A model generated the notes under the pieces. It saw only the letters and a list, made by a program, of their open reading frames with translations. It made no database searches and had not been told where the DNA came from. This document shows, piece by piece, positions 45,808-55,403 of a stretch of 64,000 nucleotides of DNA (its first letter is position 1; the number at the start of each line of letters is the position of its first letter). Source of the stretch: Pigmentiphaga litoralis (GTDB taxonomy: Bacteria > Pseudomonadota > Gammaproteobacteria > Burkholderiales > Burkholderiaceae_B); contig NZ_JACCBP010000001.1 in the NCBI RefSeq assembly GCF_013408655.1, forward strand, positions 62,001-126,000, given 5' to 3'. Made by a program: the position numbers and the translations under genes.

Positions 45808-47004
45808 ATGGAAGCCTATGTTCTTGACTGGGCCAATCTTCTGCTGCGCTGGCTCCACATCATTGTGGCCATCGCCTGGATAGGCTCTTCCTTCTACTTC
45901 GTCTGGCTGGACAACAGCCTCCTCAAGCCGCAAAACCCTGCGCTCCTTAACAAAGGCGTGTCGGGTGAGCTGTGGGCCGTCCACGGTGGCGGTTTCTACA
46001 ATCCCCAGAAATACATGGTGGCGCCCAAGCAGTTGCCCGAGCACCTGCACTGGTTCTACTGGGAAAGCTACTTCACGTGGATGTCGGGTTTTGCGCTCTT
46101 TATCGCGCTGTACCTGTTCAACGCGCAGACCTATCTGATCGACAAGAACGTGTTCGACTGGAGCCCGGCGGCTGCAGTCAGCGCGGCGCTGGCGATGCTG
46201 GTGGTGGGCTGGGTGGTGTATCACCTGATCTGTACGATGGCCGGGACGGAAGAAGGGTCGGACCTGAAGGTGGGTATCGCGGTCAGCATCTTTATCGTGC
46301 TGGCGTCGTGGGTGGCCTGTCAGTTGTTTTCGGGCCGCGCGGCGTTTCTGCTGACGGGCGCAATGATCGCGACGATCATGAGCGCGAACGTGCTGATGGT
46401 GATCATTCCGGGGCAGCGCAAGGTGGTGGCGGCGATGCGGGCGGGGCAGCCGGTCGATCCGATCTATGGCAAGTTGGGCAAGCAGCGCAGCGTTCACAAC
46501 ACGTATTTCACGCTGCCGGTGATTTTCGCGATGCTGTCGAATCACTACAGCATGGTGTATTCCGCCAAACATAACTGGGTCGTGCTGGTTGTGCTGATGC
46601 TGTCGGGCGCGCTGATTCGCCAGTATTTTGTGCTGCGGCACAAGGGTGTGAATCAGATCGGTTATCCGATTGCGGGTGTGGCGCTGATTGTCGCGATCGC
46701 GGTGTGGATTGCACCGGCATCGGTAACGGCGCCGGCGCCGGCCAAGACGGCATTCACGGAAGCCGATACGGCGCAGGTGCAGCAGATTGTGGCGCAGCGC
46801 TGCGCGATGTGTCATAACGCGGTGGTGCAGAACAAGGGTATCCAGCTGGATACGCCAGCCACGCTGACGTCGCATGCCCAGGCTGTCTACCAGCAGGCGG
46901 TGGTGCAGAAGACGATGCCGATGGCGAATGCGACCGGCATGACGGATGAGGAACGGGCGCTGCTGGGCCGGTGGTTCCTGGCCGGGGCGCCTGCGCCGAA
47001 GTAG
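45808..47004 (+). CDS. puuD: Urate hydroxylase PuuD (membrane domain plus cytochrome c)
   Basis: A 398-residue membrane enzyme for the first step of urate breakdown (urate to 5-hydroxyisourate). The N-terminal domain has about eight TM helices with conserved histidines ([20 protein letters not shown] near 16, [15 protein letters not shown] near 79), and a C-terminal cytochrome c domain has a haem site C332-A-M-C-H336 and a Met ligand region (KTMPM). Unlike soluble uricase it passes electrons to the respiratory chain. Other purine-breakdown genes are not next to it. A hairpin follows. Confidence 0.93.
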
Positions 47005-47042
47005 TCAACACACTTATCCATCGCGCCTTCCCAGGCGCAAAT

Positions 47043-47070
47043 CGAGGGCGGCTTCCGGGCCGCCCTCGTC
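47043..47070 (+). terminator. Probable terminator after puuD
   Basis: A perfect 10-bp stem (CGAGGGCGGC / GCCGCCCTCG) with a 6-nt loop; the following sequence is only modestly T-rich. Confidence 0.6.
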
Positions 47071-47137
47071 ATTTACAATGCCCGGCATGTCTCGCCACCA
47101 CGGCGAGCCCGGCATTCCAGATAAAAAGGGCCTCCCC

Positions 47138-48334
47138 ATGATCATCAAACCGCGCGTGCGTGGATTCATCTGCGTGACTACCCATCCGGTTGGCTGCGAA
47201 GCCAACGTCAAGGAACAGATCGATTACGTGACCGCTCAGGGTCCGATCGCCAATGGGCCGAAGCGCGTGCTGGTGATTGGCGGGTCGACGGGGTATGGCC
47301 TGGCTGCTCGCATTTCTGCCGCGTTCGGGTCTGACGCCGCAACCCTGAGCGTGTTCTTTGAACGCGCGGGTACCGAATCGAAGCCGGCCACGGCGGGCTG
47401 GTACAACACGGCCGCCTTCGAAAAGTTTGCGACGGCCAAGGGCCTGTACGCACGGGGCATCAATGGCGACGCGTTTTCGGACGCCGTAAAGCAGCGCACG
47501 ATAGCCGTGATCAAGGAAGACCTGGGTCAAGTGGACCTGGTCGTGTACAGCCTGGCGTCGCCGCGCCGCACGCATCCCAAGACGGGTGAGGTCTTCAATT
47601 CGACGCTCAAGCCGGTCGGCAAGTCGATTACCGTGCGCGGTATCGATACCGACAAGGAAGTGGTCAAGGACGTGACGCTGGAACCTGCCAGCGAGAAGGA
47701 AATCGCCGACACGGTCGCCGTGATGGGTGGCGAGGACTGGCAGATGTGGATCGACGCGCTGCAGGAAGCGGGCGTGCTGGCCGAAGGCGCGAAGACGACG
47801 GCGTTCACTTACCTGGGCGAGAAGGTCACGCACGACATCTACTGGAATGGTTCGATCGGCGCCGCCAAGAAGGACCTGGACCAGAAGGTGTTGAGCATTC
47901 GCGAAAAACTGGCTGCGACGGGTGGCGACGCGCGTGTGTCGGTGTTGAAGGCGGTTGTGACGCAGGCAAGCTCGGCCATTCCGGTCATGCCGCTGTACCT
48001 GTCGTTGCTGTTCAAGGTGATGAAGGCCAAGGGCACGCACGAAGGGTGTATCGAGCAGGTCTACGGTCTGTACAAGGAAAGCCTGTACGGCAACGCGCCG
48101 CATGTGGATGACGAAGGGCGTTTGCGCGCGGATTACAAGGAACTGGATCCGGCAGTGCAGGAAGAAGTACAGAAGCTGTGGGATGAGGTCACGACCGAGA
48201 CCATTTATAGCCAGACGGATTTTGCGGGCTACAAGAAGGACTTTCTGCGGCTGTTCGGCTTCGAGATTGAGGGTGTGGATTACAACGCCGACGTGAATCC
48301 CGACGTGCAGATTCCGAACGTCGTGCAGGTCTAA
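47138..48334 (+). CDS. fabV: Enoyl-[acyl-carrier-protein] reductase FabV (NADH)
   Basis: A 398-residue enzyme of the FabV/trans-2-enoyl-CoA reductase family, performing the last reduction in each fatty acid elongation cycle. Marks are the N-terminal [20 protein letters not shown], the NADH-binding [16 protein letters not shown] (residues about 44-59), and the active-site Tyr-x8-Lys in [12 protein letters not shown]. FabV is naturally resistant to triclosan. The ATG at 47138 gives the standard length and has AAGGG upstream; a longer frame overlaps puuD. It is separated from puuD by a hairpin and is probably a single gene. Confidence 0.95.
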
Positions 48335-48533: not shown

Positions 48534-48539
48534 TATACT
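48534..48539 (+). promoter_or_regulatory. Candidate -10 element for the riboswitch operon
   Basis: TATACT, a few bases before the aptamer, so that transcription would start just at its 5' end. The -35 region is poor. Confidence 0.45.
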
Positions 48540-48544
48540 GCCTG

Positions 48545-48642
48545 CTGCTCCGGGGTGTGTCCGCGCAGTTGTTAGCGGACGCTGAGATGACCATACCGAA
48601 CCCGCGAACTTGACTCGGTTCATACCGACGTAAGAAGAGCTG
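48545..48642 (+). ncRNA. TPP riboswitch (thi box)
   Basis: The aptamer shows the TPP signature in order: P1 GCTC/GAGC (48547-48550 with 48637-48640), the CGGGGTG bulge, a P3 stem GTCCGC/GCGGAC with a 10-nt loop (about 48559-48580), the GCTGAGAT element (48581-48588), then ACCCGCGAACTTGA-like P4/P5 sequence with CGG-TTCATA-CCGACGTAAG (about 48615-48634), corresponding to the conserved CTGATC...TAAT...GCGTAGGGA segment. It lies 170 bp before the luxE-like start on the same strand. TPP binding normally lowers expression of the genes downstream. No T-rich terminator follows, so control of translation, or Rho-dependent termination, is more likely than intrinsic termination. Confidence 0.9.
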
Positions 48643-48813
48643 TCTGCCGAACCGCGGCCCCCGGGCCGCACCCTGCACGACTTCCCCGATCTTGGTGTGA
48701 CGGGACGTCGGGCCAAGCAGGATCGGCAGCGAATGGCGAGTGTCTGCCACGCTTTCGGAGCAAGGTTCCGGTTTCGACCGGCCAAGAACGCCAAGGCTCC
48801 GACGAGGCACCCT

Positions 48814-49941
48814 GTGACACACGCCGACCCCGCCGCACCGGGCATTGCGCCCGACCTGCTTGCGGATCTCCTCGCATTCATAGCTACGCCGCAGGCTGCT
48901 GCCAAGGCCGACACTGACGCCGACGCCGCCTTCAACGCGCTGGCGCTGCGTCTGTTCGCCCATCAGTTCCAGCACAACGCCGCGTTCCGCCGTTATTGCC
49001 AGCAGCAGGGCAAGACCGCGCGCACCGTGCGCCATTGGCGCGACATTCCGGCAGTGCCGATCAATGCCTTCAAGGATCTGACGCTGAGCTGCGTGCCGCC
49101 CGATCAATGCGAACGGGTGTTCATGACCAGCGGCACGACGCGCGGCGATGTGAAGGGCCGTCATTACCATCCGCACCTGCAGGTGTACGACCTGTCGATG
49201 CGCCGGCACTTTGCCGAGCGCGTGATGCGAGGCGTGCCGCGCATGCGGATGGGCATTGTCTTTCCAACCGAAGCGATGATGCCGAATTCGTCGCTCGCGC
49301 ATTATCTTGCGCTGGCCAAGACGCATTTCGGAACGGACGACAGCGCCTACTTTGTCGGGCCTGACGGGCTGGATGCCGACGCGTTGCGCGATACCTTGCT
49401 GGACGTGGTGCAGAAGGGCGAGCCGTATGCCTTGCTGGGCGCCAGCTACAGCCTGGTGCATGCCATGGATGCGCTGCGTGAGCAGGGCGTCAGCGTGAAG
49501 CTGCCGCCGGGCAGCCGGTTGTTTGATACGGGTGGCTTCAAGGGCCAGTCGCGCGAATTGGCAATGGATGATTTCTACAACCAGTTGACCGAGATGTTCG
49601 GCGTGCCGGCCGAGTGGTGCATCAACATGTACGGCATGACGGAACTGAGCACGCAGTTCTATGACGATGGCAATGCCACGTTGCCGGCGATCAAGTCCGG
49701 GCCGCATTGGATTCGATCCCGCACGGTGGACCCGATGACGGGGCAGGATGTCCCGAAGGGCGAGCGGGGCGTGCTGACGCATTGCGACCTGGCCAACTTC
49801 AATTCGGTCACGACCATCCTGACCGAAGATGTTGGGATTACCGTAGACGGCGGGTTCCTGCTGCTGGGCCGGGCGGAAGGTGCGCAGGCGAAGGGGTGTT
49901 CGATGGCGGTGGATGCGTTTTTGCAGGCGGCGCGGGCATGA
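48814..49941 (+). CDS. LuxE-like acyl-protein synthetase
   Basis: A 375-residue ATP-dependent acyl-activating enzyme of the LuxE family. It has the adenylate-forming motif FMTSGTTRGD and conserved TGGFKGQSREL and NMYGMTELSTQFYDD segments. Near the C-terminus, Cys362 in KGCSMAV matches in place the acyl-carrying Cys364 of Photobacterium LuxE, so it should form an acyl-AMP and then an acyl-enzyme for transfer to LuxC. The start is taken as the GTG at 48814 with GAGG 6 bp upstream, giving the family length; an ATG at 48733 is possible. First gene after the TPP riboswitch; its stop overlaps the luxC-like start. In luminous bacteria LuxE acts with LuxC and LuxD on fatty acids; here there is no LuxD or luciferase and the substrate is probably different. 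Confidence 0.88.
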   Translation: MTHADPAAPGIAPDLLADLLAFIATPQAAAKADTDADAAFNALALRLFAHQFQHNAAFRRYCQQQGKTARTVRHWRDIPAVPINAFKDLTLSCVPPDQCERVFMTSGTTRGDVKGRHYHPHLQVYDLSMRRHFAERVMRGVPRMRMGIVFPTEAMMPNSSLAHYLALAKTHFGTDDSAYFVGPDGLDADALRDTLLDVVQKGEPYALLGASYSLVHAMDALREQGVSVKLPPGSRLFDTGGFKGQSRELAMDDFYNQLTEMFGVPAEWCINMYGMTELSTQFYDDGNATLPAIKSGPHWIRSRTVDPMTGQDVPKGERGVLTHCDLANFNSVTTILTEDVGITVDGGFLLLGRAEGAQAKGCSMAVDAFLQAARA

Positions 49942-51479
49942 ACAGGAAGGGGCTTGGCGACGCGGCAAGCCAACCGGCACCCCGTGCTTGTCGATCCGCA
50001 TCGAATCCGCCCACGACGCGATTACCTTTAATCGCTGTTGCCTGCCACGTTCCCGGTCTTGCTGCGGACGCCATGGCTTGGGAGACCTTGTCCTTCGACG
50101 CGCACGGCGAGCGGGTCAACCTTTCCGTGCCGCGCCTGACGCCGGAGCAACTCACAGCCGTGGCGGACCGTGTGGCCCTGTCGTCGCAACACGTGATGAC
50201 GACCCTGCCGGTGATGGATGTGGTGGATGCTATCGACCGCGCCGTTGCACGCTTGCTCGACGTTAATAACGCCGATCGCCAATTGCTTGAACACCTGCTG
50301 CCCGTCATCACCGGCTTTGACCGCGAGATGGTTCGATCGGGTCTGAACGCCGCGCTGAAGTCATTCCGCCGTCCGCAGTTGCTGCGCTTTCTGGTCGAAG
50401 ACTTTGGCGATCCCGGTCTGCTGGATGACTTTCGGCCACGCGTCAAAGGCGGTTGGACGAAAGCCTGCGGCCCGCGCTTGTTGGGGCACGTGTGGGCAGG
50501 CAATGTGCCGGCCTTGCCCCTCTGGAGCATGGTGGCTGGCCTGCTCGTCAAGGGCGGCAACGTAGGCAAGGTATCGAGTGACGAGCCGCTATTCGCCGGT
50601 GTTTTTGCACGTGTGCTGGCCGAGGTGGAGCCGCGTCTGGCCGATGCCCTGGCCGTGCTGTGGTGGCCCGGCAGTGATGCTGCGATGGCGCAGGCGCTGT
50701 GTAGCAAAGTCGATGTGCTGATGGTCTACGGCGGTGATTCGGCATTGGCTGCGTGGCAGCAGCATGTGCCGCCTGGCGTGCGCTTCCTGCCGCACGGGCA
50801 CAAGATCAGCGCGGGGTTGGTGGCGGCTTCGGCGCTGGATGCGCGGCAGTCGCAGGCGACCGCGCGGCTGGCTGCGCTCGACATGGTGCGGTGGGATCAG
50901 CAGGGCTGCTATTCGCCGCAGGTGTTTTATGTCGAACGCGGTGCGCAGGTGGCGCCGCGTGCCTTTGCCCATCTGGTGGCGGGGGAACTGGCGGCGCAGC
51001 AGTATCGGTATGGCCGCCGCGGGCTGTCCTTGGAAGAAACAGCCGGCATGGCGGCGTGGCGGCAGCGGCTGGATTTCCAGGCCATGCAGGATGACCGCGT
51101 GTCGTTGATCGGTCCGGCCGACGCGCCCTGGAGCCTGGCCTTCCTCGACCTGCCGCAACCCCCGCCGCCCAGCGCGTTGAACCGCAGTGCCTGCGTTGTC
51201 GCGGTCGATAGACTGGACGACGTGGCTGCATTGCTGGCGCACCATCGCGCGCATTTGCAGACCGTGGGCGTGGCGGCCAGCCCGGAACGGCTGTTCCGGC
51301 TGGCGCCGCAACTGGCCGCGGCCGGTGCAACACGCATCTGCGGCTTGGGGGCCATGGCGACGCCCGACGTGGGCTGGCATCACGACGGGCGGTTCAGCCT
51401 GCTGGATCTGGTGCGCATGGTCGACATCGAAGCGTCGGCGGAAACGCTTGCCGAAGCACATGCCTCGTACCGCGATTGA
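49938..51479 (+). CDS. LuxC-like acyl-CoA/acyl-protein reductase
   Basis: A 513-residue NADPH-dependent reductase of the LuxC family (aldehyde-dehydrogenase fold), which reduces an acyl thioester to an aldehyde. The catalytic cysteine is Cys324 in RWDQQGCYSPQVFYVE, the equivalent of Cys286 in luminous-bacteria LuxC. Other marks are GHVWAGNVPALPLWSM (183-198) and LPHGHKISAGLV (284-295). The ATG overlaps the luxE-like stop (ATGA), so the two proteins are made together and probably form the reductase complex. The N-terminal 25 residues are Pro/Ala-rich and may not be conserved. Confidence 0.88.
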   Translation: MNRKGLGDAASQPAPRACRSASNPPTTRLPLIAVACHVPGLAADAMAWETLSFDAHGERVNLSVPRLTPEQLTAVADRVALSSQHVMTTLPVMDVVDAIDRAVARLLDVNNADRQLLEHLLPVITGFDREMVRSGLNAALKSFRRPQLLRFLVEDFGDPGLLDDFRPRVKGGWTKACGPRLLGHVWAGNVPALPLWSMVAGLLVKGGNVGKVSSDEPLFAGVFARVLAEVEPRLADALAVLWWPGSDAAMAQALCSKVDVLMVYGGDSALAAWQQHVPPGVRFLPHGHKISAGLVAASALDARQSQATARLAALDMVRWDQQGCYSPQVFYVERGAQVAPRAFAHLVAGELAAQQYRYGRRGLSLEETAGMAAWRQRLDFQAMQDDRVSLIGPADAPWSLAFLDLPQPPPPSALNRSACVVAVDRLDDVAALLAHHRAHLQTVGVAASPERLFRLAPQLAAAGATRICGLGAMATPDVGWHHDGRFSLLDLVRMVDIEASAETLAEAHASYRD

Positions 51480-51483
51480 TGCG

Positions 51484-52419
51484 ATGACACGCGATACGCA
51501 CAGCGACAGCAGGGACGTTTCCGGAGGCGCGACTGCCGGGCATGCCGCGCCGCTGACAGCCAACAGGGGGCAGCGTCCCTTGGTCGACGCGCGGGATGAC
51601 GCTGGCCGGGAAGCCGACCCTGACAACGCGTCGCGACCCGGTGCCGACGCTTTCCTGAGCATGAACGACGTGCGCTTCACGTACGCCGGGTCTTTGCATC
51701 CTGTGGTCGAGCACATCGATATGGCGTTGCCGGCCGGCGCGATCCATTGCCTGCTGGGCCGCAGCGGCTGCGGCAAGTCGACGCTGCTGAAGCTTGCGGC
51801 TGGCTTGCTGCGCCCCGACGTCGGGACGATTACGGTTGGCGGCGAACCGGTACGCGAGCCGGATCAAGCGACCGGTTTTGTCTTCCAGTCCCCGACACTG
51901 CTCGCGTGGCTGGACGTGCTCGACAACGTGCTGTTGCCAGTGTCCCTGCATCGCAAGCCGGGCGCCCAGGACATCGCCGAGGCGAAGACCTTGCTCGGGC
52001 AACTGGGCCTGGCCGACCTGTTGCATCGGTTCCCCCATCAACTGTCCGGCGGGCAGCAGAGCCGCGTGGCGATCGCACGCGCCTTGCTGCCGAAACCGCG
52101 CCTGTTGCTGATGGACGAGCCGTTCGCCGCCCTTGACGCACTGACGCGCGAAGCCTTGCAGGATGCCTTGCTGGCGGTGTGCGCATCGCAGGGGGTGTCG
52201 GTGCTGTTTGTGACGCATGACATTGCCGAAGCGGTGTACCTGGGTGACCGCGTGATGGTGGTGGAGCAGGGCAGCCTGCGCTGCGATATCCCGGTCACGG
52301 TGGGCCGGCCGCGAACGTCTGGCGTGCGGCATCGTGCCGACTTCAATGCCGTCTGCATGCAGCTGCGGGAAGTGATGGAAGCAGGTGAGCGTGCGGCCGG
52401 AATCGGGATGATCGGATGA
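51484..52419 (+). CDS. ABC importer ATP-binding protein, ThiZ/SsuB/TauB-like
   Basis: About 311 residues. The ATPase domain (residues about 58-285) has Walker A LLGRSGCGKST, Q-loop FVFQSPTLLAW, signature LSGGQQSR, Walker B LLLMDEPFAALD and H-loop LFVTHD. The first 55 residues are unconserved and Asp/Arg-rich; an ATG at 51661 right before the ATPase domain is an alternative start. It follows the luxC-like gene by 4 bp and overlaps the permease gene (ATGA). ATPases of this group drive uptake of sulfonates, nitrate or thiamin pyrimidine precursors; the TPP riboswitch upstream favours the last. Confidence 0.9.
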   Translation: MTRDTHSDSRDVSGGATAGHAAPLTANRGQRPLVDARDDAGREADPDNASRPGADAFLSMNDVRFTYAGSLHPVVEHIDMALPAGAIHCLLGRSGCGKSTLLKLAAGLLRPDVGTITVGGEPVREPDQATGFVFQSPTLLAWLDVLDNVLLPVSLHRKPGAQDIAEAKTLLGQLGLADLLHRFPHQLSGGQQSRVAIARALLPKPRLLLMDEPFAALDALTREALQDALLAVCASQGVSVLFVTHDIAEAVYLGDRVMVVEQGSLRCDIPVTVGRPRTSGVRHRADFNAVCMQLREVMEAGERAAGIGMIG

Positions 52420-53243
52420 CCGGACAATCGAAGCGAAACGGGGTGACACTGGAAACGAAAAATACCGCCACATGGGCGCGGTCCCCCGGCCTGTGGTCGG
52501 CCGCATTGTTGCTTGCCGCGCTGCTGCTATGGCAAGGCGCAGTCACTGTCTTTGACTGGTCGCAACTCGTCCTGCCATCGCCCGGCGTCGTTGCCGCGTC
52601 GCTGTACCGCGGCTTTACCTCGGGCTACTTCTGGCCGCATATCTGGCAGACCACGGTCGAAGTGCTGCTGGGCCTGGCGCTTGGCGGCGCGATCGGTTTT
52701 GCTTGCGGACTCGCGCTGGGCGAATCGGCTTTCGTGCGCCGCGTGGTCATGCCTTATGTGGTCGCCAGCCAGGTCATGCCCAAGCTGGCGCTGGCGCCGC
52801 TGCTGACGGTGTGGCTAGGCTTTGGCACCTTGCCCATGGTCGTGATCACGGCGATGGTGTGCTTTTTCCCGTTGCTGGAAAGCACGCTGACCGGCATCGG
52901 CCAAGCCGATCCCGCCCGGCTGGAACTGTTTCGCATGCTGGGCGCGTCGCGGTGGAAGACGCTGTGGCGGCTCAAGGTGCCGACCGGGCTGCCTGGCATT
53001 CTGGCCGGGCTGCGCATGGCCGTGGTGCTGGCGCTGGTAGGCGCGGTGGTGGGCGAGTTCATTGGCGGCAGCGTGGGGCTGGGCGCCCTGATCATTGCTG
53101 CCCAAGGATCGATGGATACGCCGTTGATGTTCGCCGTGCTGGCGTTGATCACGGTGCAAGGATTGGTGCTGTATCACGGCGTGGTCGGGCTGCAGCAGTT
53201 TCTGCTGCGCCGCTACGTCGCCCCGTCCGCGTCGGAGAACTGA
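52416..53243 (+). CDS. ABC importer permease, ThiX/SsuC/TauC-like
   Basis: A 275-residue inner-membrane protein with six TM helices. The permease-ATPase coupling motif is seen as EGA-loop equivalent in LFRMLGASRWKTLWRLKVPT (residues about 169-188). The N-terminal 20 residues are hydrophilic. It overlaps the ATPase gene by 4 bp. The type is shared by thiamin-precursor (ThiX), taurine and sulfonate importers, and the TPP riboswitch at the head of the operon suggests a thiamin-related substrate. The binding-protein gene follows after 104 bp. Confidence 0.9.
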   Translation: MTGQSKRNGVTLETKNTATWARSPGLWSAALLLAALLLWQGAVTVFDWSQLVLPSPGVVAASLYRGFTSGYFWPHIWQTTVEVLLGLALGGAIGFACGLALGESAFVRRVVMPYVVASQVMPKLALAPLLTVWLGFGTLPMVVITAMVCFFPLLESTLTGIGQADPARLELFRMLGASRWKTLWRLKVPTGLPGILAGLRMAVVLALVGAVVGEFIGGSVGLGALIIAAQGSMDTPLMFAVLALITVQGLVLYHGVVGLQQFLLRRYVAPSASEN

Positions 53244-53267
53244 ACGGGGGAACCGGGCGAAGCTGGA

Positions 53268-53327
53268 CCGAATCCAGATACGCCGAACCCAGGTAAATCG
53301 AACTCAGGTGATCCGAATTCGGGCACC
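53268..53327 (+). repeat. Degenerate ~15-bp repeats between permease and binding-protein genes
   Basis: About four imperfect copies of a unit like CCGAACCCAGGTAAAT (CCGAATCCAGATACG, CCGAACCCAGGTAAAT, CGAACTCAGGTGAT, CCGAATTCGGGCACC) lie in the 104-bp gap, just before the Shine-Dalgarno of the next gene. Role unknown. Confidence 0.5.
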
Positions 53328-53347
53328 TGACTTAAGGAAGTGGAACC

Positions 53348-54394
53348 ATGAGAAGAACATTCCTGCGCCGCACAGGCGCCCTGGCGGCGGCTGCTGCATT
53401 GACGTCGGCCGTGGGTGCGCTGACGCTGACGCTATGGCCAACGGCGGCCGTGCACGCGCAGGCCGCGCCCGCCAAGCCCACCGCACCCCAGCCTTTCACG
53501 CTGGCCGGGTGGAGCAAGCCCATTACCGAGATCACGCACCTGCTGGTCGAAGAAGAGAAGGGCTTTTTCCGCAGCGAAGGGTTGGCGCTGAACTACCTGC
53601 CGGGCGCGGGCGGTGGGGATGCCTTGCGCAATCTGCTCAGCGGTCAGGCAGACATCGCCTTTACCGATCCGGGTTCGTTTTTCGCAGCCCTGGACAAGGG
53701 CGAGAAGCTGCGCGCCGTGTACGACATCTACCCGCAAAACGTGTTCAACGTCGTGTCTTTGCCGACCAGCAATATCCGCAAGCCGGCGGACCTGAAGGGC
53801 AAACGTGTGGGGGTCTACAGCTTGTCCAGCGGCACGCTGCAGAACCTGCAGATTTTGCTGCAGCAGGCAGGATTGAAGAAGGACGACGTGACGGTGGTCG
53901 TGACCGGCCTGCTGAATTTCGCGCCGTTGATCCAGGGGCAGGTTGACGCTACCGCCGCCACCGATACCGGCCTGGCCTTGGCGCGCCGCCGTGGCGTGCG
54001 CGACCCGCAGGTGATTGAAGTCGGTGACTACCTGAATTATTCCAGCGACATTCTGGTGGTGCGCGAGTCGACCTACCAGCAGAACAAGGACGTACTGCGC
54101 CGCTTTCTGGCCGGCTATCGCCGCAGTGCGCAATGGATGATCGATCAGCCGGCCGAAGCCGCGCAATTGGCCGTGAAGCGAGCGATCGACGGGCAGGATC
54201 CGGCACTGAACCGCGAGATCATTGATATCCGCAACCGTTCCGCAGTGTCGCCGCTGACCAAGGAACGCGGGCTGGGCACCCTGGATGAGAAGAGCCTGCA
54301 GGCAGCCGCCGACGCGTATCGCAAGTTGGGGCTGATCGAGCGCGACATTCGTATTAGCGATGTGATCGGCACCGACCTGTTGCCGACGCGGTGA
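53348..54394 (+). CDS. ABC importer substrate-binding protein, NMT1/THI5 (ThiY)-like
   Basis: A 348-residue periplasmic protein. A signal peptide with twin-arginine-like start (RRTFLRRTGAL) ends near residue 38 (VHAQA). The mature part has the NMT1/THI5 binding fold: EEKGFFRSEGLALNYLPGAG (residues about 63-82), SGQADIAFTDPG, and LKGKRVGVYSLSSGT (about 149-163). This family includes the pyrimidine-precursor binding protein ThiY as well as sulfonate binders. AAGGAAG lies 7 bp before the ATG. Completes the importer encoded by the two genes upstream. Confidence 0.88.
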   Translation: MRRTFLRRTGALAAAAALTSAVGALTLTLWPTAAVHAQAAPAKPTAPQPFTLAGWSKPITEITHLLVEEEKGFFRSEGLALNYLPGAGGGDALRNLLSGQADIAFTDPGSFFAALDKGEKLRAVYDIYPQNVFNVVSLPTSNIRKPADLKGKRVGVYSLSSGTLQNLQILLQQAGLKKDDVTVVVTGLLNFAPLIQGQVDATAATDTGLALARRRGVRDPQVIEVGDYLNYSSDILVVRESTYQQNKDVLRRFLAGYRRSAQWMIDQPAEAAQLAVKRAIDGQDPALNREIIDIRNRSAVSPLTKERGLGTLDEKSLQAAADAYRKLGLIERDIRISDVIGTDLLPTR

Positions 54395-54464
54395 GCGAAG
54401 CCGAGGACGACGCGCCAAAGCACGTGCAAGCACCGCAATCCGTTTCTTACCTAAAGGCCCGCTG

Positions 54465-55232
54465 ATGGACTTCAAGAACAAGGTCGTACTGGTGACTGGC
54501 GCAAGCCGCGGCATTGGCGCGGCCATTGCCACAGCCTTTGCGAAAGAGGGGGCCGTTGTTGCCGTCAACTATCTGCAGAACGATGCGGCGGCGGGTGCGA
54601 CGGTGGACCGGTGTATTGCCGCGGGCGGCGACGCGTGGGCTGTCAAGGCAGACGTGACCGATGCCCAGGCCGTGCAGACCATGGTGGACGAGGTGCTGCT
54701 GGAAGCTGGCAAGATAGATGTCGTCGTCAACAATGCGTTCCGGCCGTATCGCTTCGATCCGGACACGCGTCGGCGCTTTGCGGAACTGGATTGGACGGCG
54801 TATCGCGACCAGTTCGACGGTGCCGTGCAGGGCGCCTGCAACGTGTGCCTGGCTGTGCTGCCGCACATGCGCGAGCGGGCAAGCGGCAGCATCATCAACA
54901 TCAGCAGTGACCTGGTCGAACAACCGGTAGTGCCGTATCACGACTACGCCACGGCCAAGGCCGCGTTGACGGGCTTCAGCCGGCATCTGGCCGCCGACCT
55001 GGGGCCGTCGAATATTCGCGTGAACTGCGTGGCGCCAGGCCTGGTGTGGCCAACGCATGCCAGTGCCGGCACGCGGGAATCGATACGCGAACAGATCGCA
55101 AGCCAGACGCCATTGCGGCGCATTGCGACGCCCGAAGACGTGACCGGCCCGGTGTTGTTCCTGGCATCCGACTGGAGCCGTTTCATGACAGGCCAGGTGC
55201 TGTTCGTGGACGGCGGGCTGGTCATGCGCTAG
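54465..55232 (+). CDS. Short-chain dehydrogenase/reductase (FabG-like)
   Basis: A 255-residue SDR oxidoreductase. The NAD(P)-binding motif TGASRGIG is at 11-18, the active-site Ser at 147-148 (NISSDL), and Tyr161-x3-Lys165 in YATAKAAL; the usual NNAG is NNAF. The C-terminal TGQVLFVDGG is typical. It could reduce an aldehyde or ketone with NADPH, and as the last gene after the luxC-like reductase it may turn that enzyme's aldehyde product into an alcohol (inference). AAAGG precedes the ATG; the gap to the binding-protein gene is 70 bp. Confidence 0.88.
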   Translation: MDFKNKVVLVTGASRGIGAAIATAFAKEGAVVAVNYLQNDAAAGATVDRCIAAGGDAWAVKADVTDAQAVQTMVDEVLLEAGKIDVVVNNAFRPYRFDPDTRRRFAELDWTAYRDQFDGAVQGACNVCLAVLPHMRERASGSIINISSDLVEQPVVPYHDYATAKAALTGFSRHLAADLGPSNIRVNCVAPGLVWPTHASAGTRESIREQIASQTPLRRIATPEDVTGPVLFLASDWSRFMTGQVLFVDGGLVMR

Positions 55233-55247
55233 GCGCGCGCAGCCACA

Positions 55248-55322
55248 AGCAACGACGCCTCAAACAACGACGCCTAAAGCAACGACACCCCAAACAACGA
55301 CACCGCAAACGACGACGCCCAC
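55248..55322 (+). repeat. Tandem array of five 15-bp repeats
   Basis: Five consecutive 15-bp units of the form A(A/G)CAACGAC(G/A)CC(T/C)(C/A)A: 55248-55262, 55263-55277, 55278-55292, 55293-55307 and 55308-55322 (the last more diverged). It begins 16 bp after the SDR stop. Purine-rich with a strong strand bias; the frame through it would read Lys-Gln-Arg-like pentapeptides but lies outside any supported gene. Confidence 0.85.
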
Positions 55323-55403
55323 CGCGGCATACCACCGGGCGGGCGTCTGGAAAACGGGTACTGCCAACTATTCCAACCGGGCCGAATAGTCCGCCCGAAT
55401 CCC

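Follow-up and report, generated by a model that had tools for sequence, protein, structure and literature searches.

A TPP riboswitch-led luxE–luxC operon of Pigmentiphaga litoralis as a probable salvage route for the pyrimidine half of thiamin

The operon, its enzymes and its TPP leader

In a 64,000-nucleotide window of Pigmentiphaga litoralis (the whole stretch of DNA that was analysed; assembly GCF_013408655.1, contig NZ_JACCBP010000001.1, all positions being window coordinates) we studied an operon headed by a thiamin pyrophosphate (TPP) riboswitch aptamer, which continues on the + strand with genes for a LuxE-like protein, a LuxC-like protein, the ATPase and the permease of an ATP-binding cassette (ABC) transporter, an NMT1/THI5-type binding protein and a short-chain dehydrogenase/reductase (SDR), in this order. 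The aptamer lies at 48541..48653 (RF00059, 48.8 bits, E 1.6e-8) and is followed by luxE at 48733..49941, encoding an acyl-adenylating enzyme or acyl-protein synthetase (PF04443, 1.9e-23, 83.4 bits against a cut-off of 24.9) and offering an in-frame alternative start at GTG 48814 besides ATG 48733, and by luxC for an acyl reductase at 49938..51479 (PF05893, 6.1e-86, 289.2 bits against a cut-off of 21). The transporter genes are found at 51484..52419 (ATPase; ABC_tran PF00005, 1.4e-31) and 52416..53243 (permease; BPD_transp_1 PF00528, 1.1e-28), the gene of the periplasmic binding protein at 53348..54394 (NMT1 PF09084, 2.2e-49) and that of the SDR at 54465..55232 (adh_short_C2 PF13561, 4.7e-62). 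The aptamer and the six-gene same-strand set had been proposed at these positions in an earlier reading of the bare letters (the sequence-only reading) and are confirmed by the RF00059 and Pfam matches, but instead of the three ATGA overlaps counted there we found two, between luxE and luxC and between the ATPase and permease genes, with luxC and the ATPase gene separated by 4 bases.

LuxE and LuxC both score above the cut-offs of their Pfam superfamilies (PF04443 and PF05893) and both possess the catalytic cysteine. The C-terminal cysteine of LuxE is residue 389 when counted from ATG 48733 and residue 362 when counted from GTG 48814, the latter being the number used in the sequence-only reading; it is conserved in 78/78 alignment rows including the window, as is Cys324 of LuxC, also located as predicted. 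The window proteins match LuxE and LuxC of the luminous fatty-acid reductase structure (PDB 7xc6) at 1.2e-19 and 1.1e-16, respectively, and stay far below the equivalog cut-offs of the luminous proteins, with 78.6 versus 550 bits for LuxE (NF052244) and 77.8 versus 750 bits for LuxC (NF052251). LuxE and LuxC jointly convert an acid into an aldehyde, and an SDR can complete the reduction to the alcohol. The sequence data support a predicted set of enzymes of this kind, leading from acid to alcohol, in a thiamin context.

The RF00059 match of the leader, obtained in a 601-base scan, spans model positions 1–105 of 105. The covariance check that had been suggested for the aptamer gave a full-length match with a low E-value, but its 48.8 bits are below the RF00059 gathering score of 54.3, which is why a scan of the whole window at the gathering cut-off returns only a tRNA. 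The genome of the window holds two RF00059 matches, and the second (G000:C1:2858136-2858251; L002, L003), also below the cut-off with 47.5 bits, stands ahead of thiC and thiG.

For a wider survey we scanned GTDB genomes with LuxE, which gave 98 relatives, and took the best 80 loci (loci are given below as L numbers). A regular expression for the aptamer missed most leaders, and covariance models were used instead. For 28 of the 80 loci the genome was scanned with RF00059, which, by coordinate mapping, gave an aptamer upstream of luxE in all 28, in 18 of them over the cut-off. Across these 28 orthologous leaders and that of the window, 24 columns are invariant, CUGAGA included. A covariance model built from the same 29 leaders (R1), which has just 12 base pairs and therefore leans on sequence, detects the aptamer ahead of luxE at 79 of the 80 loci, 51 of these 79 being outside the training set; the sole miss is L036, whose contig begins inside thiD. 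The window leader itself, as a member of the training set, scores 82.1 bits. R1 gave six extra matches in 1.34 Mb. Four of them stand before thiM (one each in L064, L066, L070 and L072), the fifth, at 5231 in L081, likewise precedes a thiM match, and the last is another copy of the aptamer in L034. Homologous clusters therefore keep the TPP leader, and its assignment to this transcript is supported. No clear expression platform was visible in the fold of the window leader (z -0.72); from the usual behaviour of this riboswitch class, the operon would be turned off by TPP.

In L034 (Hylemonella sp. UBA2468) the two aptamer copies, at 1328-1437 and 2822-2931, enclose a small gene pair (1672-2324), presumably of the nucleotidyltransferase–HEPN type.

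Conservation, spread and linkage to thiamin genes

The operon occurs in Burkholderiales and Bacillota among the best 80 of the 98 LuxE relatives. Gene order was counted in the 68 loci whose sequence runs on for at least 6 kb downstream of the luxE match, and in 66 of them all six genes are present in order, the exceptions being L014 and L017, which have no ATPase gene. The survey of gene neighbourhoods thus revealed a recurrent combination of LuxE relatives, aptamer and importer, and neither luxA, luxB nor luxD appears among the clustered neighbours of the 80 loci (clusters of at least four loci). The sequence-only reading likewise noted no luxAB and no luxD. In a LuxE tree of 87 rows the operon proteins form one group of 79 rows with a support of 100/99, and eight further members of the LuxE family, taken from related genomes, lie about 9.6 changes per column away. 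All 20 Bacillota rows fall into a single group (100/98) nested in the diversity of the Burkholderiales, which suggests, as far as these sequences tell, that the operon was transferred together with its leader between the two, in one direction or the other, the tree being midpoint-rooted with very long outgroup branches. The SDR of the Bacillota orthologues is 61–65% identical to that of the window. Within the family of the window, LuxE matches of at least 60% identity occur in 42 of 268 genomes, fragments counted, and the operon is therefore patchy.

Some individual loci depart from this picture. In the Alcaligenaceae metagenome-assembled genomes (MAGs) L013, L014 and L017 the interval between luxC and the permease gene holds no ATPase gene (L013 being too short for the gene-order count), and their importer may rely on an ATPase encoded elsewhere. 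In Hylemonella gracilis a second solute-receptor gene, which we take to be of the Bug/tripartite type, is inserted between the genes of the binding protein and the SDR (L048:8506-9603 and L056:5370-6473). The operon of Variovorax sp. WS11 (L037) stands on a record named plasmid pVarWS11_2 and can therefore be mobile. The LuxE of L118, from a 3250-base contig of genome G436, is just 48% identical to that of the window and falls into the main tree group on a long branch; in the same search the identity was 62–72% for LuxE proteins of the main group and no more than 30% for other LuxE paralogues. Around the operon of the window itself, a same-strand gene at 46946-48334, which we assume to encode a FabV-type enoyl reductase, ends about 200 bases ahead of the aptamer, and behind the SDR stop, at 55240-55325, there are imperfect tandem repeats with a unit of about 15 bases (caacgacgcc-like).

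In the neighbour clustering over the 80 loci ThiD is the commonest linked gene (18 loci), and in 14 of the 58 Burkholderiales loci examined thiD stands immediately upstream of luxE. We refer to these 14 as thiD-type loci. The aptamer precedes thiD in all 13 whose contig covers that region, and the thiD product of L023 matches the phosphomethylpyrimidine kinase family of Pfam at 5.5e-95. The contig runs past the SDR gene in ten of the 14, and each of the ten has either thiE (L023, L036, L043, L045, L046, L052 and L082) or thiO (L039, L053 and L058) as the next gene. The thiE product of L046 matches TMP-TENI at 1.8e-36; the name thiO is our assumption from sequence and position, and the two thiO proteins that were scanned match the broad family PF01266 only. 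Further downstream, thiO is followed by thiG and thiE in L053 and by the start of thiG and then the contig end in L039, and thiE by thiO and thiG in L082. The thiD-type loci are thiamin operons, with the luxEC-ABC-SDR block at the place where a pyrimidine supply is needed. The thiE products after the SDR in L023, L043, L045, L046 and L052 are extended at the N-terminus by about 120 residues, and this part gave no Pfam match in the one scanned (L046). In the Bacillota loci L064, L065, L066, L070 and L072 the block adjoins thiM-thiD-thiE, which is near it in L081, and in L064, L066, L070 and L072 thiW lies between aptamer and luxE.

We then compared the inventories of thiamin genes, many of the surveyed genomes being MAGs of unknown completeness. 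Of the 14 thiD-type genomes 13 lack ThiC, compared with 9 of the 44 remaining operon-bearing Burkholderiales genomes (Fisher p 1.8e-6, a value that does not stand for independent events as the thiD type falls mostly into one Ramlibacter clade); the figures are 12 of 13 versus 8 of 41 if only loci with more than 1.3 kb of upstream sequence are counted. Among the 13 thiD-type genomes that lack ThiC, 11 have ThiG, L041 and L058 being without both. A search of 16 Burkholderiales genomes with PF02110 (ThiM) gave no match over the cut-off, six of them having weaker matches below it, and ThiM occurs in each of the 13 Bacillota genomes that were checked. ThiM is required for the use of free hydroxyethylthiazole.

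ThiC loss was also tried as a genome-wide marker of the operon and dropped, as the family backgrounds show no enrichment; the ThiC argument is therefore made solely from the contrast between thiD-type and other loci.

The proposed pathway and its alternatives

Hydroxymethylpyrimidine (HMP) is the alcohol used by ThiD, and the matching acid is therefore 4-amino-2-methylpyrimidine-5-carboxylate. Going by the title of a paper in the reference list of PMC7780320 (Neal and Pearson 1964), this compound was isolated from rat urine as a metabolite of thiamin. We propose that the TPP-led operon probably serves to salvage the thiamin pyrimidine from this acid, with substrate and order of reactions being what we infer from the gene content. 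The binding protein and the ABC importer would bring in 4-amino-2-methylpyrimidine-5-carboxylate, an oxidised product of the breakdown of the pyrimidine moiety of thiamin. LuxE would activate it with ATP to the acyl-AMP and load the acyl group onto its own C-terminal cysteine, from where LuxC would accept it on its cysteine for an NAD(P)H-dependent reduction to the aldehyde. In the next step the SDR would convert the aldehyde into HMP, ThiD would phosphorylate HMP and ThiE would join the product to thiazole phosphate. The sequence-only reading had named an oxidised thiazole or pyrimidine precursor and thiamin acetic acid as possible substrates. Judged from gene content, the pyrimidine half is favoured by thiD within the operon, thiE or thiO after it, the lack of ThiC in 13 of 14 thiD-type genomes and the negative result for ThiM (over the cut-off) in the 16 Burkholderiales genomes.

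Several observations weigh against this interpretation. The best PDB match of the binding protein is an uncharacterised exported protein (3qsl, 4.9e-14) and ThiY (3ix1, 2.8e-8) is second, and the NMT1/THI5 label extends to other ligands and was termed misleading in another riboswitch case (PMC7373994). The description as a ThiXYZ-like importer therefore holds for the presence of an ABC importer but is weaker than it sounds with respect to the ligand. The thiM neighbours of the Bacillota block and, in four loci, thiW would fit a thiazole substrate as well. The contrast in ThiC is weakened by the clustering of the thiD type in one clade and by L053, a thiD-type genome which has ThiC. Moreover, ThiC absence is not raised among carriers at the family level: it amounts to 12/37 genomes with the operon versus 130/362 without it in the Ramlibacter family (the operon being called by a LuxE match of at least 48% identity) and to 3/42 versus 39/226 in the family of the window, where the three ThiC-less operon genomes are all less than 90% complete. 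Over the 79 operon genomes examined (that of the window and those of 78 of the 80 loci, L026 and L033 being excluded) ThiC is absent in 27 and a strong ThiG match in five, but this asymmetry is at least partly background, since ThiC is generally lost more often than ThiG (over the cut-off in 226 and 260, respectively, of the 268 genomes of the window's family). Finally, the window's own genome carries thiC and thiG, and the operon would therefore be a supplement there.

Among the alternatives, the operon might make HMP from a different carboxylated pyrimidine, or reduce and thereby detoxify or recover a thiamin antimetabolite. The linkage to thi genes would be identical for these ligands, and the ligand we favour is likewise assigned by inference, but the simple acid gives HMP on reduction without any further enzyme and is already known as a thiamin metabolite, so that we regard the other ligands as unlikely.

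A thiazole product was our first idea, taken from thiM and thiW in the Bacillota. The acid would then be 4-methylthiazole-5-acetate, reduced to hydroxyethylthiazole and phosphorylated by ThiM, which would agree with the block lying beside thiM-thiD-thiE and behind thiW in the Bacillota loci named above and with ThiM in 13/13 Bacillota genomes. It was set aside on the lack of ThiM over the cut-off in the 16 Burkholderiales genomes and on the presence of thiD, not thiM, in the Burkholderiales operon, and with ThiG retained in 11 of the 13 ThiC-less thiD-type genomes we consider it quite improbable. In the Bacillota, ThiW may supply the thiazole and the luxEC block the pyrimidine.

Reduction of thiamin acetic acid to thiamin, followed by phosphorylation, would account for TPP control and an importer in genomes that make both halves, like that of the window, but leaves the neighbours thiD and thiE or thiO-thiG-thiE unexplained, and appears very unlikely to us. 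A fatty-acid reductase making aldehyde or alcohol under coincidental TPP control would fit the match to the luminous pair 7xc6 and the public name of the LuxE clade, and is nevertheless highly improbable in view of the TPP leader in 79 of 80 loci, the thi genes within the operon and the scores far under the luminous cut-offs. In public annotation this clade (P0008 and others) appears as ‘long-chain fatty acid--CoA ligase’ or as a ‘LuxE/PaaK family’ acyltransferase, the former name probably being wrong.

The salvage of the pyrimidine acid is thus our preferred interpretation. For the overall salvage idea of the sequence-only reading, the TPP leader, the importer and the acid-to-alcohol set in a thiamin context are retained, but its ‘ThiXYZ-like’ element is weak.

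Known systems and meaning for thiamin supply

The closest known parallel is the salvage of base-degraded thiamin by ThiXYZ, YlmB and TenA, in which a broken pyrimidine half is also imported, HMP is also the end product and ThiY is the second-best PDB match of the NMT1/THI5-type binding protein of the operon. This known route runs from N-formyl-4-amino-5-aminomethyl-2-methylpyrimidine (FAMP) via 4-amino-5-aminomethyl-2-methylpyrimidine (AmMP) to HMP and includes TenA (PMC10470507). It uses amide and amine hydrolysis, whereas the proposed route of the operon would activate an acid with ATP and reduce it twice; TenA and YlmB were absent among the recurrent neighbours of the 80 loci (clusters of at least four loci), a result that covers neighbours, as the genomes were not searched for either. 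The binding protein has not a single cysteine in its 348 residues and does not carry the Cys-rich iron site that we take to be the mark of a THI5-type HMP phosphate synthase.

With the luminous LuxC–LuxE fatty-acid reductase the operon shares two protein families and both catalytic cysteines, and differs from it in predicted TPP control, thi neighbours and the distance to the luminous equivalogs. The TPP-riboswitch thiMDE and thiW operons of Bacillota are likewise TPP-led and adjoin the block in L064, L066, L070 and L072, but they handle ready-made precursors, whereas the luxEC block would make one from an acid. A chemical precedent is found in griseoluteic acid synthesis, in which EhpF presumably adenylates and EhpG is presumably LuxC-like. 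There, a ring carboxylate on a nitrogen heteroaromatic becomes a hydroxymethyl group (PMC3175449), although for antibiotic synthesis and not for the vitamin salvage proposed here.

In the openly accessible literature, most subscription papers being outside this scope, LuxE and LuxC were never joined to thiamin or TPP riboswitches in the titles and abstract starts among the matches listed. The word ‘lux’ is absent from the main text of PMC3766115, and in PMC3219970 lux is used as a reporter. We rate the TPP-controlled salvage of thiamin precursors as already known in type and the proposed acid-reduction chemistry as new.

In a wider sense we lean slightly towards regarding the operon as a further entry of HMP into bacterial metabolism besides ThiC and TenA, with import of the pyrimidine acid and its reduction by LuxE, LuxC and SDR, a replacement of ThiC in Ramlibacter, transfer between phyla and an overlooked vitamer. 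In Ramlibacter the module would take the place of ThiC within a single TPP-led operon, with thiD ahead and thiE or thiO-thiG-thiE behind. If this is true, a function would be assigned to a LuxE/LuxC clade that is publicly named as a fatty-acid ligase, and the enzyme pair would be available for the reduction of heteroaromatic acids. An acid vitamer would be added to the vitamin B1 economy, the pyrimidine acid would be an overlooked currency of vitamin B1 in soil and water, and the ThiC-less Ramlibacter and Bacillus relatives would gain a defined source of HMP.

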